From positions 1-22,499 of IMG/VR virus record IMGVR_UViG_3300034020_001542: DNA of 22,499 nucleotides; one strand, 5' to 3'. Within the stretch, counting starts at the first letter, position 1; every line of letters starts with the position of its first letter. This DNA comes from a virus. Below, in pieces: positions 7,118 through 21,198 of this stretch. The notes beneath the pieces were generated by a model. It was not told the origin of the DNA, did no database searches, and saw only the letters and a list, made by a program, of their open reading frames with translations. A program made the translations under genes and the position numbers.

Positions 7118-8326
7118 TTAAACATTAACTAAACTATGATTCAAGATTTGTACTGGACTCATGCCAACTGTTACTTGATATTCTGGAGGCAGAACATCCT
7201 TGAACATTGACAGAAAACAATATTTGCAATCAAAACACTTATTTGCGGGGACATATTCACTCCATGCCATCCAAGAATTGATGCCATAGAGATTGAACTT
7301 ACTCTGAAACTTGGGGTGAAAGCGCACATTGCCACCCTCGCCGGGAGGAACTAAAGGATCTGTTGCCAGCATCCCACCAGTTAAGAATCTGGCTAAACTC
7401 ATTTCTCCCCATGTGGGGTATGAGCCGTCCCATCCCCGGATATTGATATAAGGCATCCCCATGTCTGGGGCTTTGGGACAGTTTGTGCAGCACAAGGAGC
7501 ATTGACTTCTAATCTCCACTGGGCATTTTTGATATCGTTCGCTTGCTGTGTGGACTTCCACTTGAAAACCTAGATATTCTAGGAGTTCAATACTATGGGG
7601 AAGAGGTTTTACAAATTGTGCTGTGCCTTCACAAGTGCCTTGAATGGGACATGAAGCGCAATCCACAAAACCGGGAGCATTGTAATAGGGGTTTAGACTG
7701 CGTTTTTTACCCATCAAAGCAGACACCGCACATTGAGTACGAGTCCAGTAGGGGATATTTAACTGAGTAGCCAACTCTCGCATTAGTTTTGCTGATGCTT
7801 GAGAATTTAACTTGAGTGTCCGCATCCACTTCTGGTCGTCTGGGGCGGGGACATCTTCTAGTCCTGCATCCATTACAACTTGCTCATCACCACGAAAACC
7901 AGAGGAGACAATCGCATGACAACCCGAATCAACACTACGAGCAAACATCTCCGTGATTGTTTCAGGACTATCATTTACGGTGTGGATGATGGGGCGGATG
8001 TAGGCGATCGCCTTTGCGCCACACTCCCTAGCAGCTTTTAAAGTCCGATAGCGGGGTTCTGTGGGTGCTGGTTCTCTATCTTTGGGGAGATGGGAGATAG
8101 AAGCAAACACGAACAGATTAAGATTTTCAGACCAATAAGTTAATCTTTCACGCCACCAAGAAGACGATAAATCGCCTTTGGTGATAATTGCCACAGCACC
8201 AGTATGGCGATCGCTCACCAACTGGTTTAGTTTTGCCTCTGTGGAGAGGCGGAGAATACTAGGGTCTGCCAAATTATTTATAGAGACTGGCAAATCTCTT
8301 AACAATTTTTCCCACTCTTGACGCAT
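7118..8326 (-). CDS. Radical-SAM-like TIM-barrel protein with three Cys clusters, N-terminal cluster motif absent
   Basis: A 402-residue protein. Residues about 20-160 read like the part of a radical SAM barrel after the cluster loop: DPSILRLSTEAKLNQLV, GAVAIITKGDL, LFVFASISHLP, PRYRTLKAARECGAKAIAYIRPI, HAIVSSGFRGDE. No CX3CX2C precedes them, and the frame is closed by a stop a few codons upstream of ATG 8326, so the N-terminal lobe is missing or this is a diverged subfamily. The C-terminal half has Cys clusters CASCPIQGTC (about 219-229), CPVEIRSQCSLCCTNC (about 265-285) and CFDCKYC (about 365-372), plausible sites for auxiliary Fe-S clusters or zinc. AGGAG lies about 12 bases upstream. It sits 4 bases after the cupin gene, so the two are co-transcribed. 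Substrate unknown. Confidence 0.6.
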   Translation of the reverse strand: MRQEWEKLLRDLPVSINNLADPSILRLSTEAKLNQLVSDRHTGAVAIITKGDLSSSWWRERLTYWSENLNLFVFASISHLPKDREPAPTEPRYRTLKAARECGAKAIAYIRPIIHTVNDSPETITEMFARSVDSGCHAIVSSGFRGDEQVVMDAGLEDVPAPDDQKWMRTLKLNSQASAKLMRELATQLNIPYWTRTQCAVSALMGKKRSLNPYYNAPGFVDCASCPIQGTCEGTAQFVKPLPHSIELLEYLGFQVEVHTASERYQKCPVEIRSQCSLCCTNCPKAPDMGMPYINIRGWDGSYPTWGEMSLARFLTGGMLATDPLVPPGEGGNVRFHPKFQSKFNLYGINSWMAWSEYVPANKCFDCKYCFLSMFKDVLPPEYQVTVGMSPVQILNHSLVNV

Positions 8327-16147: not shown

Positions 16148-16858
16148 ATGAATAATATAGCAGTTTTTGAGTTTGAGTCAAAGGAACTTGAAGTAGTTGT
16201 TATTGACAACAATCCTTGGTTTAACGCTTCTCAGTTTGCTAAAGCACTAGGATATACTAATCCGTCAGAAGCTATACAGGACAATGTTTCCGCTAAATAT
16301 AGCCAGCAGCTAGATTTAGGAAGACGGGGTAAAAAACCTATTTTTATTAGTGAGCCAGGATTGTATCAGCTAATCATGAGATCAAGCCTTCCTAATGCTG
16401 AGAAATTTCAGGACTGGGTGTTTGAAGAAGTTTTACCAAGCATACGCAAGACAGGCACTTACTCAAAAGACTCTCACAAAGTCTTAGGAGCATACACGGA
16501 AAGAGTAGAAGCTATGTTTGACGCTGCCAATAAAATACCTGAAGGTTATTGGTGCGTACTTCATGAGTCGGCTAACTTGCTAATTTGGGTAGAAGCTAAA
16601 CTCAAGTATCCAGTAGATAGACATGATCTGCTTGATGGTAGCATCGGTATTCACTGGTCAAGATATCGCGCAGGAAAATCATGGGCTGGCGATCGCATTA
16701 GATTTGATTACCGTTTTCCTGATGGGCGTCCTTGCCATCCTTGGTGTTATCAAGAGCAGGAATTATTGCATTTTAGAGAGTTCTTGAGTAGTAAATATAA
16801 GCCGATTCTACTGCCTCGATATTTAGAAGATAAATACCCTGGTTTAGTGAAAGCTTAA
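16148..16858 (+). CDS. BRO-N domain antirepressor-type protein
   Basis: 236 residues. Residues 1-110 form a BRO-N domain: VVIDNNPWFNASQFAKALGY, NPSEAIQDNV, then ISEPGLYQLIMRSSLPNAEK and FQDWVFEEVLPSIRKTG, a classic signature of phage and baculovirus BRO proteins. Residues 115-236 are a different C-terminal domain, rich in Trp and Tyr, with no family recognised. BRO proteins bind DNA, and phage members often act as antirepressors. It stands alone behind its own promoter and structured leader and is followed by a hairpin- and repeat-rich non-coding region. Confidence 0.88.
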   Translation: MNNIAVFEFESKELEVVVIDNNPWFNASQFAKALGYTNPSEAIQDNVSAKYSQQLDLGRRGKKPIFISEPGLYQLIMRSSLPNAEKFQDWVFEEVLPSIRKTGTYSKDSHKVLGAYTERVEAMFDAANKIPEGYWCVLHESANLLIWVEAKLKYPVDRHDLLDGSIGIHWSRYRAGKSWAGDRIRFDYRFPDGRPCHPWCYQEQELLHFREFLSSKYKPILLPRYLEDKYPGLVKA

Positions 16859-17352: not shown

Positions 17353-18321
17353 ATGAAAACTACACAATATAGTCTCCTGGAATTATCCGATTTATTTCAT
17401 GCCAAGCAAATTGATATGTTGTCTAATGAGTCTGTCGAGATAACATTAGATGATAAAAGTGATGTGTCTTGTATTGAATTGTTAACTCATGATGACTGTA
17501 ACTACTTTGTTATTGCTAATAATGCAACTGGGTTAAATGAATCATTTTGGACTACTGACGATAGTCACTTTATAACCATAACAACAGTAGAGGAAACAAC
17601 GTTAAATGAATCATTTTGGACTACTGACGATAGTCACTTTATAACCATAACAACAGTAGAGGAAACAACTGTAGAGGAAACAACTGTAGACAATCTAGAT
17701 ATTAACGCGATCGCTGTAACCAATGAAGAAATAATTCAAGACCTTCAAAATAAAATAATTGCAGATGGTATAAATGCAGTTATGGATCTATGTTCCGAAT
17801 TTTCCGGTATTGAATTGCTGGAATTATGCCAAAAATTACAAACTATGGCGGTTAGAAAGATTAAAACTGAGATCAAAACTGAGAACAAAAAAACCAAAGT
17901 AAATAAACCAGAAACACAAACCGAAAAAAAAGAGCGCGTAAGCGCCAAAAACTTTAAATATTACGATCTTCTAAAATCGTGGCATGGTGTACCAACTGAT
18001 AAGATTATCGCAGATAAGTTAAACGGTGGTTATAGTTCATCTGTGATCAATGAGGATAAACGAGTAATAAATGTACTAATGGGAACCGATCCAAAATTAG
18101 AAATTAGTCAAGATTGGGCTAATTATATTATCGGTTACTGGGAACAAAATCCTGATACGACCTGGGTTAGGTTGCATTATTGCTTTGCCAAAACTAGCAA
18201 GTCTAACGGGGCCAGGGATTGTCAAGATATCGGATTGCTATGTAATTACATCGTAGATAACGGTGTATCCAAGGAAGACATAGAAGCAGCGATCGCGTCT
18301 CAGATCGCGTCTCAAAATTAG
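17353..18321 (+). CDS. Hypothetical protein with internal duplication
   Basis: 322 residues. The N-terminal half is acidic and includes two exact copies of the 23-residue unit LNESFWTTDDSHFITITTVE(ETT) and then VEETT repeats. Residues about 170-195 are a Lys/Glu-rich linker (KTEIKTENKKTKVNKPETQT). The C-terminal 125 residues look like a folded helical domain (YYDLLKSWHGVPTDKIIADKLNGGY, then QDWANYIIGYWEQNPDTTWVRL), perhaps DNA-binding. No family recognised. The promoter overlaps an inverted repeat and a perfect hairpin follows the stop, so it is a self-contained, probably regulated unit. Confidence 0.6.
   Translation: MKTTQYSLLELSDLFHAKQIDMLSNESVEITLDDKSDVSCIELLTHDDCNYFVIANNATGLNESFWTTDDSHFITITTVEETTLNESFWTTDDSHFITITTVEETTVEETTVDNLDINAIAVTNEEIIQDLQNKIIADGINAVMDLCSEFSGIELLELCQKLQTMAVRKIKTEIKTENKKTKVNKPETQTEKKERVSAKNFKYYDLLKSWHGVPTDKIIADKLNGGYSSSVINEDKRVINVLMGTDPKLEISQDWANYIIGYWEQNPDTTWVRLHYCFAKTSKSNGARDCQDIGLLCNYIVDNGVSKEDIEAAIASQIASQN
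17532..17669 (+). repeat. Perfect 69-nt tandem duplication inside a CDS
   Basis: Copies at 17532-17600 and 17601-17669 are identical base for base (69 nt, 23 codons) and keep the frame. They are followed by a 15-nt repeat encoding VEETT. Complete identity indicates a very recent duplication. Confidence 0.93.
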
Positions 18322-18330
18322 AACCAATTA

Positions 18331-18361
18331 ATAGATCGTTATCTGATACATAACGATCTAT
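18331..18361 (+). terminator. Perfect 12-bp inverted repeat between genes
   Basis: ATAGATCGTTAT-CTGATAC-ATAACGATCTAT, starting ten bases after the stop of the preceding gene. No T tract follows, so terminator function is likely but not certain. Confidence 0.55.
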
Positions 18362-18398
18362 CTCATTAGTCAATCACAACTTAACAGGAATTAAAATC

Positions 18399-19121
18399 AT
18401 GACAGACAACAGAGATCGAATCATAGAATCACTAAAAAGTCAAGTTGCAGAACTTAAAAAAACAGCCGAGCTATTAGTTGAGTTAAATCAAAATAGCCAA
18501 GACGCTATTAATAACCTAAAAAACTATTTTGATAATTCTCAGAAAATTTTGGCTAAATTGCAGTTAAGCAATAACAACGCAATTAATAGCGGCATTGAGT
18601 GCCAAAAATTAGAAACTAAATTAGTTGAGGTTGATCAATCCGATATCCCACCAACTAGCACTCCACCAACTTCTAAACCACCAACAAACACTCCACCAAC
18701 TAGCACTCCACCAACTTCTAAACCACCAACAAACACTCCACCAACTTCTAAACCACCAACTAGCACTCCACCAACTTCTAAACCACCAACTAGCACTCCA
18801 CCAACTTCTAAACCACCAACTAGCACTCCACCAACTAGCACTCCACCAACTTCTAAACCACCAACAAACACTCCACCAACTTCTAAACCACCAACAAACA
18901 CTCCACCAACTTCTAAACCACCAACTAGCACTCCACCAACTTCTAAGCCACCAACAAACACTCCACCAACTAGCACTCCACCAACTTCTAAACCACCAAC
19001 AAACACTCCACCAACTAGCACTCCACCAACTTCTAAACCACCAACAAACACTCCACCAACTTCTAAACCACCAACAAACACTCCACCAACTAGCACTCCA
19101 CCAACTCAGTCCACTAAATAA
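18399..19121 (+). CDS. Coiled-coil protein with long Pro/Thr repeat tail
   Basis: 240 residues. Residues 4-60 show heptad spacing (IIESLKSQVAELKKTAELLV) and predict a coiled coil, so an oligomer is likely. From about residue 84 the chain is a run of PPTS, KPPTN and TPPTS units ending TPPTQSTK. The repeat has no aromatic or hydrophobic residues and should be an extended, flexible stalk. There is no signal peptide or sorting motif, so surface display is not implied; a virion fibre, linker or cytoplasmic scaffold are options. AGGAA lies upstream of ATG 18399. Flanked by two perfect hairpins. Confidence 0.65.
   Translation: MTDNRDRIIESLKSQVAELKKTAELLVELNQNSQDAINNLKNYFDNSQKILAKLQLSNNNAINSGIECQKLETKLVEVDQSDIPPTSTPPTSKPPTNTPPTSTPPTSKPPTNTPPTSKPPTSTPPTSKPPTSTPPTSKPPTSTPPTSTPPTSKPPTNTPPTSKPPTNTPPTSKPPTSTPPTSKPPTNTPPTSTPPTSKPPTNTPPTSTPPTSKPPTNTPPTSKPPTNTPPTSTPPTQSTK
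18648..19105 (+). repeat. Pro/Thr-encoding tandem repeat (15/30-nt units)
   Basis: Units actccaccaactagc and actccaccaacttct alternate with aaaccaccaacaaac in varying order. The copies are almost identical, with a rare synonymous change near 18946 (aag for aaa). The array is open in three frames, which produces spurious ORFs. Expect length variation between related genomes. Confidence 0.95.
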
Positions 19122-19129
19122 CTAACCAC

Positions 19130-19156
19130 AATACAGCACTATTTTAGTGCTGTATT
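19130..19156 (+). terminator. Perfect 11-bp hairpin after the repeat protein
   Basis: AATACAGCACT-ATTTT-AGTGCTGTATT, beginning nine bases after the stop. The stem is strong with a five-base loop; the following bases are not a T tract. Confidence 0.6.
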
Positions 19157-19172
19157 CTACTATCAAGAAATT

Positions 19173-19481
19173 ATGGAACTAATCACAAATCTAATCAACA
19201 ATATCAAAACTACATTAGACAATTTAGAACCACTAATCAACTCGATATCAGATAAAACAAAAGATAGATTAGAACGGATAATAGTAGTCTATCTGGGAAC
19301 TATCAACAGTCAGATCCCGATGTATTCCTCAAATTTTCACTATTTTGGATATTCCTACAAATACGGAATTGTCCGCGTATCGTGCCAAAATCCAGGATAC
19401 AAAAGCGGGGATCTATTGTCCGGCACTTATCACGATAAGCAGAATTATCTATTCTCTGGAACTATTCACAAAGTTTATTAA
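19173..19481 (+). CDS. MELIT-leader small protein 1
   Basis: 102 residues starting MELITNLINNIKTTLD, a leader shared with the next two genes. The body is different from theirs: Tyr-rich and beta-like (HYFGYSYKYGIVRVSCQNPG, then YLFSGTIHKVY). The leader is amphipathic and could form a helix that docks on a common partner. No family recognised. It ends 13 bases before the next start; in the gap ATGGAACTAAT is tandemly repeated (19484 and 19495). Confidence 0.5.
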   Translation: MELITNLINNIKTTLDNLEPLINSISDKTKDRLERIIVVYLGTINSQIPMYSSNFHYFGYSYKYGIVRVSCQNPGYKSGDLLSGTYHDKQNYLFSGTIHKVY

Positions 19482-19494
19482 CTATGGAACTAAT

Positions 19495-19596
19495 ATGGAA
19501 CTAATAACGGATCTAATATCTAGCATCCAGATAACGCTAGATAGTATCAATAAGACTGTTAAAAAGTATCAGTCACAGTCAAAATCAAAAGTCAGT
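19495..19596 (+). repeat. Duplicated gene leader, copy A
   Basis: The first 102 nt of gene 2 match the first 96 nt of gene 3 (19928-20023) apart from about half a dozen substitutions and a 6-nt gap. Similarity stops abruptly after the VS codons. Confidence 0.85.
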
Positions 19597-19914
19597 GACA
19601 GCAATTTTCAAAAATTATGCGACGACATAATGAATTCAGGTAGAGCCGAAAGAAGTAGGTGGGAACACATTAAGATCGCCGACTTTCAGCAACACCTAGA
19701 AGATAGGGATCTAATAAAAAAAGTTCATAGCGCACCTGGTCGCTATGCCGAAATATCTGGGAAGGTATGGTTCGGTAGTGCCGAATATGATTTTTCGTTC
19801 CTAAGAATCAACGGCAAAGAGTTTACCTTCTATAGTATCTATGATGATCACCTAACTATAGAAATTCACGTTACCGCAGATCATCCAACCGCAAAAATTC
19901 TACTATTAAAATAA
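19495..19914 (+). CDS. MELIT-leader small protein 2
   Basis: 139 residues from ATG 19495, beginning MELITDLISSIQITLDS. I chose this start and not the in-frame ATG at 19345, because the latter would overlap the previous gene by 137 bases and would hide the shared leader. After about residue 34 the body diverges: basic helices (RAERSRWEHIKIADFQQHLE), then an alpha/beta end (EFTFYSIYDDHLTIEIHVTA). No family recognised. Confidence 0.6.
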   Translation: MELITDLISSIQITLDSINKTVKKYQSQSKSKVSDSNFQKLCDDIMNSGRAERSRWEHIKIADFQQHLEDRDLIKKVHSAPGRYAEISGKVWFGSAEYDFSFLRINGKEFTFYSIYDDHLTIEIHVTADHPTAKILLLK

Positions 19915-19927
19915 GAGAATATCAACT

Positions 19928-20023
19928 ATGGAACTAATAACGAATCTGATATCTAGCATCCAACTAACGCTAGATAGCATCAATAAGACTGTTAAAAAGT
20001 ATCAGTCAAAATCAAAAGTCAGT
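19928..20023 (+). repeat. Duplicated gene leader, copy B
   Basis: Second copy of the leader described at 19495-19596; the first gene (19173) carries a more diverged version limited to about 16 codons. Confidence 0.85.
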
Positions 20024-20461
20024 AGCGATCGCAAGCTACAGATCGCTATCAAAACAGCCCAGGAAATTTGCAGTACCTACGACGCGGTACAACACGGGAT
20101 CGCCGTTGCTGCACAGCAAGAGGGTGAGAGATACGCCGCGATATCGCTAGAACTGCAAATACAGGGATACGATCCCTATGTATGCCGTCCCAAATATCGG
20201 TACTGGACAGAATTTTGTCCAGACGTAGCTATAGGTGTCCTACATACCTTAATGGGAGAATACAGCACACCCGCACTTTTAAACCTGATTAAAAAATTGG
20301 TAATAATCGTCAAGCCGTTCCGCGCTCATACACCGGAACAGATAGAGACAAGATCGCTTGGCATCAAACCCTACAAATTCAATTCCTACGCGGTATGGCA
20401 TAACTCATTCTCAGATCATGGTATGAGCTATGCACTTTGGAGAGAGTGCGGCTTTGAATAG
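19928..20461 (+). CDS. MELIT-leader small protein 3
   Basis: 177 residues, beginning MELITNLISSIQLTLDS and nearly identical to gene 2 for the first 32 residues. The body is a third unrelated domain: a helix (AIKTAQEICSTYDAVQHGIA), a Tyr/Arg/Trp segment (YDPYVCRPKYRYWTEFCPD), and a C-terminus NSFSDHGMSYALWRECGFE. No catalytic motif recognised. The 13-base gap to gene 2 suggests one transcript. Confidence 0.6.
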   Translation: MELITNLISSIQLTLDSINKTVKKYQSKSKVSSDRKLQIAIKTAQEICSTYDAVQHGIAVAAQQEGERYAAISLELQIQGYDPYVCRPKYRYWTEFCPDVAIGVLHTLMGEYSTPALLNLIKKLVIIVKPFRAHTPEQIETRSLGIKPYKFNSYAVWHNSFSDHGMSYALWRECGFE

Positions 20462-20463
20462 CT

Positions 20464-20546
20464 TGGCGCGATCGCGCCACCTCAGAGTCGGAGTGCGATC
20501 GCCTAACCCGGAACATTTATAAAATCATCTAGTACCGGGACTAGAT
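20464..20546. promoter_or_regulatory. Two dyads between genes
   Basis: TGGCGCGATCGCGCCA (20464-20479) is a 16-bp perfect palindrome directly after a stop codon, containing the HIP1 core. ATCTAGT-ACCGGG-ACTAGAT (20527-20546) is a 7-bp dyad 15 bases before the next start and could be an operator or a leader hairpin. Confidence 0.55.
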
Positions 20547-20560
20547 CAAAAGTTAAAAAC

Positions 20561-21051: not shown

Positions 21052-21118
21052 GACATCTATTAGCTAGTGTGAGATAGAAAGAGAAAAATTAATTAATCGC
21101 TCTTGTTTGATATAAATG

Positions 21119-21149
21119 AAAAGCATATAGTCCTCAAGTATGCTTTTTA
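21119..21149 (+). terminator. Rho-independent terminator
   Basis: AAAAGCATA, an 11-base loop and TATGCTTTT, extended by further T and ATAC. The stem-plus-T-tract layout isolates the downstream gene from read-through. Confidence 0.65.
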
Positions 21150-21198
21150 TACAATTATGTCGCTGAAATACTCAATCAAAGTTTTATATTAGAAGTGC

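Follow-up and report, generated by a model that had tools for sequence, protein, structure and literature searches.

The T-even internal proteins Ip1-Ip3 have only an N-terminal leader in common, which directs packaging, and their bodies act as inhibitors of different type IV restriction enzymes (PMC12373910, PMC3012670). In Rhs C-terminal displacement, a homologous front part guides in new C-termini and leaves front-body-front-body arrays (PMC2935791). A locus with features of both was identified in a 22.5-kb virus record (IMG/VR IMGVR_UViG_3300034020_001542; all 22,499 nt were analysed and are termed the window), where three consecutive genes starting at 19173, 19495, and 19928 (g1, g2, and g3) encode a common leader in front of unrelated bodies. 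The host of the window virus is cyanobacteria. With a probability of roughly one in two, the leader originated as the N-terminal helix of g3, serves in docking or oligomerisation, and was locally copied onto new bodies, the cassette carrying it travelling between phages as a unit.

The locus resembles the T-even internal proteins in its small clustered accessory genes, short common leader, unrelated bodies, and a set that varies between relatives. It differs in that the leader sequence is unrelated to the capsid-targeting sequence (no tblastn match), the three copies stand side by side, and the cyanophage locus lacks T4-type neighbours. The likeness to Rhs displacement is in the recombination step, with homology in a common front part guiding a new C-terminus. 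However, Rhs cores are long and their displaced tips dissociated, compared to a 30-residue leader here, and no Rhs-type displaced tips lacking a start or leader were found, as g1, g2, and g3 are each a complete open reading frame (ORF) with its own start.

A common leader in front of unrelated bodies

The window phage was compared with a second and a third metagenome contig (L004 and L009) and the isolated Aphanizomenon phage CL131 (MG209611.1), giving four phages; a 28.5-kb contig (L003/L006) is the same phage as the window and identical across the 7 kb compared. The leader genes and their parts are:

19173..19481, + strand: g1, 102 amino acids; leader of residues 1 to ~25-30 and a small body, RIIVVYLGTINS...IHKVY
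19495..19914, + strand: g2, 139 amino acids; leader of residues 1-34 and an unrelated body
19928..20461, + strand: g3, 177 amino acids; native owner of the leader, with a body homologous to CL131 gp149
19495..19596, + strand: g2 leader DNA, a copy of the g3 leader (bootstrap 100%, synonymous divergence dS 0.22)
19928..20023, + strand: g3 leader DNA, a hotspot of differences to L004
19484..19505, + strand: tandem duplication of ATGGAACTAAT, with copies at 19484 and 19495

An earlier note, made from the letters of the window, had described three genes with one leader and unrelated bodies, a short tract of g2/g3 agreement ending abruptly after about 100 nt, and a duplicated 11-nt start motif; all three observations were borne out. 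The ORFs were as described, and g2 and g3 were 89-92% identical across 95-102 nt of leader DNA with a single 6-nt indel, the homology setting in ~4 nt 5' of the ATG and extending to 20023, with none beyond. This alignment scored 165 versus a shuffle maximum of 39. For all pairs of leader proteins, including g1 (of the form MELITNLI..I..TLDN) with g2 and g3, 0 of 1000 shuffles matched the score; the g1 leader DNA was borderline, with scores of 39 and 50 (to g2 and g3) versus shuffle maxima of 52 and 48. Past residue ~34, similarity among the three bodies was detectable neither in DNA nor in six-frame translation. All four window copies of the 11-mer ATGGAACTAAT lie at the leader locus, two of them forming the duplication, and one more was found at an unrelated site in the other phage sequence compared. 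The copy at 19484, first of the duplicated pair, starts a six-codon frame, MELIWN, whose stop falls within the g2 leader. Beside these starts, the g2 frame continues open 5' of its start across the latter half of g1 (19345-19494), and a 189-amino-acid TTG-started ORF overlapping g1 is probably due to chance.

Sharing of the leader is not a chance effect, as no other adjacent gene set among 148 ORFs of related phage contigs has shared N-termini; the sole other N-terminus-sharing pair was weak (E=0.002). Nor is the arrangement an assembly error, since L004 carries g1, g2, and g3 in the same order and L009 carries g1 and g3, with g2 absent. No further leader copies were found in five phage records, and no relatives with E<4 among 50,697 phages (tblastn) or 72,556 plasmids; the best phage matches were two records of one Shewanella phage at E=4, with no T-even phage. 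The term mobile, used in the earlier note, is therefore unjustified in its wider sense, the leader being confined to one locus of these phages.

Descent of the leader from the g3 family

The g3 body is homologous to CL131 gp149 (tblastn E=3e-14), and g3 as a whole has amino acid identities of 37% to gp149 and 55% to L009 g3. Colinearity of CL131 gp149 with g3 starts at residue 1 (I4, I8, D16, KK, then body; MITILDCINQMIAICDRLTTTTKK compared to MELITNLISSIQLTLDSINKTVKK), and the two loci are alike in the orthologous gene, the N-terminal helix, a repeat protein upstream, and MoxR and VWA genes downstream. Unlike the window, CL131 has gp149 in single copy, without g1 or g2 and annotated as a hypothetical protein. 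CL131 has 23 virion proteins, and the main text of the CL131 paper does not name ORF149 (PMC6293099). By its homologous body, colinear helix, and same neighbours, g3 fits a g3/gp149 family, which is one of CL131-like cyanophages; the g1 and g2 bodies are not members, and neither is present in CL131. The colinearity of gp149 and the shared neighbourhood assign the leader to the g3 family, with g1 and g2 either gained or, in a less simple account, lost from other phages. The idea of a free-standing tag thus gives way to a native N-terminus of g3. The converse possibility raised in the earlier note, that a single family has this leader as a normal component, is correct for g3 and fails for the others, as CL131 has neither the g1 nor the g2 body and L009 has no g2.

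The g1 orthologue in L009 has 80% amino acid identity (15/24 leader and 68/78 body residues), and L004 g2 is identical to window g2 as far as an altered stop. No significant matches of g1, g2, or g3 to Pfam, PHROGs, PADLOC, or PDB families were found, and two genome scans with g3 gave no real match. An origin of the g1 or g2 body from phage sequence read in a shifted frame or in reverse was rejected, as tblastx returned orthologues and chance matches only, and a gammaproteobacterial contig (L010) was dropped as a chance match near penicillin-binding-protein genes.

Selection acts on the protein sequence of the leader. The ratio of nonsynonymous (dN) to synonymous divergence was ~0.14 for the leader between window and L009 g3 and 0.16 for g1, compared to 0.31 for the g3 body. 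A hydrophobic heptad, I4-I8-[IVM]11-[LC]15-[IL]18 (22), is in register in all six leaders (joint column-permutation p=0.0006). AlphaFold models gave a helical leader, with a g3 helix over residues 2-64 and a predicted local distance difference test score (pLDDT) of ~75 over residues 1-20.

Order of copying and exchange of the cassette

In leader trees, g2 grouped with the g3 leaders of the window and L004 (bootstrap 100%), followed by L009 g3, with the g1 leaders outside. The dS between g2 and g3 leaders was 0.22 versus 1.27 between the g3 leaders of the window and L009; from the trees and these values, the g2 leader derives from g3 by copying, or was homogenised with it, later than the split from L009. 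Leader copying by recombination in front of different bodies, as proposed earlier, is supported by this young g2 leader and by the clustering of window/L004 differences at the g2/g3 junction and g3 leader. Within 18289-20504, differences between the two phages are zero from 18948 to 19909, and four fall within 93 nt at the junction and leader (scan p = 0.015), namely an 11-nt indel just upstream of the g3 leader and two single-nucleotide polymorphisms and a 6-nt CAGTCA indel inside it. Two of the three changes within the leader make L004 g3 more g2-like, and in L004 the g2 stop codon sits within the g3 start. Codons 10-15 of the L009 g1 leader differ from L009 g3 at 3/18 nt and from window g1 at 10/18 nt, a small patch that hints at possible g1/g3 conversion too. 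Leader genes number one in CL131, two in L009, and three in the window and L004, which suggests an order of events, read from present gene content.

The leader genes lie in a larger block shared with L004:

18289..20504, no strand assigned: exchanged cassette of ~2.2 kb, 97-100% identical to L004 inside
18289-18296 and 20495-20502, no strand assigned: HIP1 octamers GCGATCGC at the cassette edges
20025..20032, no strand assigned: HIP1 octamer GCGATCGC exactly at the g3 leader/body border, also there in L009

To the left, the neighbouring gene has 61% nucleotide identity to L004 (49% in protein), and to the right nothing is common to the window and L004; the block moved between phages as one piece. 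Several further window/L009 block edges coincide with HIP1, and only 2% of window positions are ≤2 nt from one. HIP1 at the edges is a lead only, since it was noticed post hoc and conserved octamers can draw alignment edges. According to a review, a role of HIP1 in homologous recombination lacks evidence, whereas some exists for site-specific recombination (PMC4390886). A tentative extension, doubtful in its full form, is a plug-in locus in which the g3-native docking helix would duplicate onto incoming bodies with breakpoints at HIP1 and the start codon, new effectors joining an existing complex in one step and the 2.2-kb cassette then spreading by HIP1-edged exchange.

The shared neighbourhood order is a gene with a Bro-N or other N-terminus and a BstA-like C-terminus, a T-rich-repeat gene (17353/gp001), the gene at 18399, and the leader gene(s). 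Two features precede g1:

18399..19121, + strand: upstream gene with a coiled-coil-like N-terminus and (PPTSTPPTSKPPTN)n repeats, a candidate partner of the leader
19130..19156, no strand assigned: perfect 12-bp palindrome AATACAGCACTA...TAGTGCTGTATT 5' of g1

The gene at 18399 is directly 5' of the leader genes in all four phages, spanning the record ends in CL131. The palindrome, a putative terminator or operator, has a stem conserved in L004 and L009 and a loop changed in L009. MoxR ATPase and VWA protein genes lie downstream of the leader genes in CL131 and L004; window positions 21116-21172 are identical over 57 nt to the 3' end of the L004 VWA gene (7484-7540), apparently the scar of a MoxR/VWA pair deleted from the window phage. 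Queries with MoxR, the upstream gene, and Bro/BstA returned only the same phages. Further left, a Bro-N domain is fused to a BstA-like C-terminal part (16148-16858), and CL131 gp002 has a near-identical BstA-like part with a different N-terminal domain. The gene at 17353-18321 contains an exact 69-nt tandem duplication at 17532-17669 (LNESFWTTDDSHFITITTVEETT twice). Past g3, CATTTATAAAATCATCTAGTA..GGGACTAGATCAAAA (20514-20551) is kept in L009, there ahead of a different gene. At the window start, positions 1-87 match both 112-198 and 52057-52143 of the L004 contig (G002), which has a near-terminal direct repeat though classed as linear.

Function of the leader and significance

Protein-level selection, the heptad, and the modelled helix make a docking or oligomerising helix the best reading. 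The leader would be the native N-terminal helix of the g3 family in CL131-like cyanophages, placed by local recombination before the g1 body first and before the g2 body later, within the window lineage, and the copies would have been retained for the usefulness of the helix at the protein level. Most likely, this short helix with its coiled-coil-type heptad brings different small bodies to one partner, which would be either another leader helix or the product of the gene immediately 5' (18399), with its coiled coil and repeats. The data show leader homology, the order of copying, selection on the protein, and transfer of the block; we infer the docking, its partner, and an accessory function of the bodies, perhaps in anti-defence.

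Several points weigh against this reading. The CL131 N-terminus matches g3 at only 7/24 leader residues, is not recovered by BLAST with the leader alone, and its heptad taken singly is not significant (p=0.64). With an unreliable g2 model (pLDDT 38) and a mediocre g3 model (55), a difference in fold between the bodies is not established. The identity of the g2 and g3 leaders could reflect gene conversion and not recent copying, gain is indistinguishable from loss with four phages only, and the partner of the leader is inferred rather than demonstrated.

It is rather unlikely that the shared stretch is kept as DNA or RNA, serving as a recombination handle and translation-start module (an ATG with overlapping stop, ATGGAACTAA) with the protein incidental. 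Such a module would fit the onset of homology ~4 nt ahead of the ATG, the tandem ATGGAACTAAT at 19484, the ending of L004 g2 within the g3 start where window/L004 differences concentrate, and the HIP1 at the leader/body border. Against it, leader change between phages is mostly synonymous (dS 1.3-1.9 versus dN 0.2-0.3) while the heptad persists, and the L009 leaders have lost the 11-mer ATGGAACTAAT yet retain the helix.

A capsid-targeting leader of the T-even internal protein type, which would load various anti-host proteins into the head to be injected, is unlikely. The T-even leader ends in a prohead-protease site, (L/I)xE; by reading, residues 1-35 of the three window proteins contain none, although ISE, INE, and IKE are present in L009 g1, L009 g3, and gp149, at differing places. 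The copy number of leader genes does vary between relatives, as capsid targeting would allow, but CL131 has a single leader gene across 112.8 kb, with none among its other genes, and the leader genes adjoin regulator, methylase, and MoxR/VWA genes, with the portal and MuF genes on the opposite strand.

An amphipathic membrane-binding helix locating proteins at the host membrane is improbable. A hydrophobic moment of 0.41-0.54 and the lysine-rich end in g2, g3, and gp149 are compatible with membrane binding, but the 3-4 heptad equally fits a coiled coil, and g1 has no lysine end and a low mean hydrophobicity (0.07). Least probable is one ordinary family of paralogues with a single fold and C-terminal parts drifted past recognition, for despite homologous leaders and a weak g1/g3 profile alignment carried by the leader (hhalign 89%), the drop of g2/g3 from ~90% DNA identity to none at a single point is incompatible with drift, and g3 as a whole retains the identities above to L009 and CL131, yet its body matches neither g1 nor g2.

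In the T-even case the leader determines where the proteins go, and the bodies counter host defence in a subtype-specific manner (PMC12373910, PMC3012670). The same anatomy of a common leader and variable bodies arose here, in cyanophages, from an unrelated helix. The locus offers a rare stepwise view of viruses building new proteins, with the front end of g3 itself duplicated locally onto new bodies. The leader is also a simple handle for finding new effectors, as whatever follows it becomes a candidate, and it raises the testable general question of whether copying a docking helix onto new proteins is a way in which phages recruit them.
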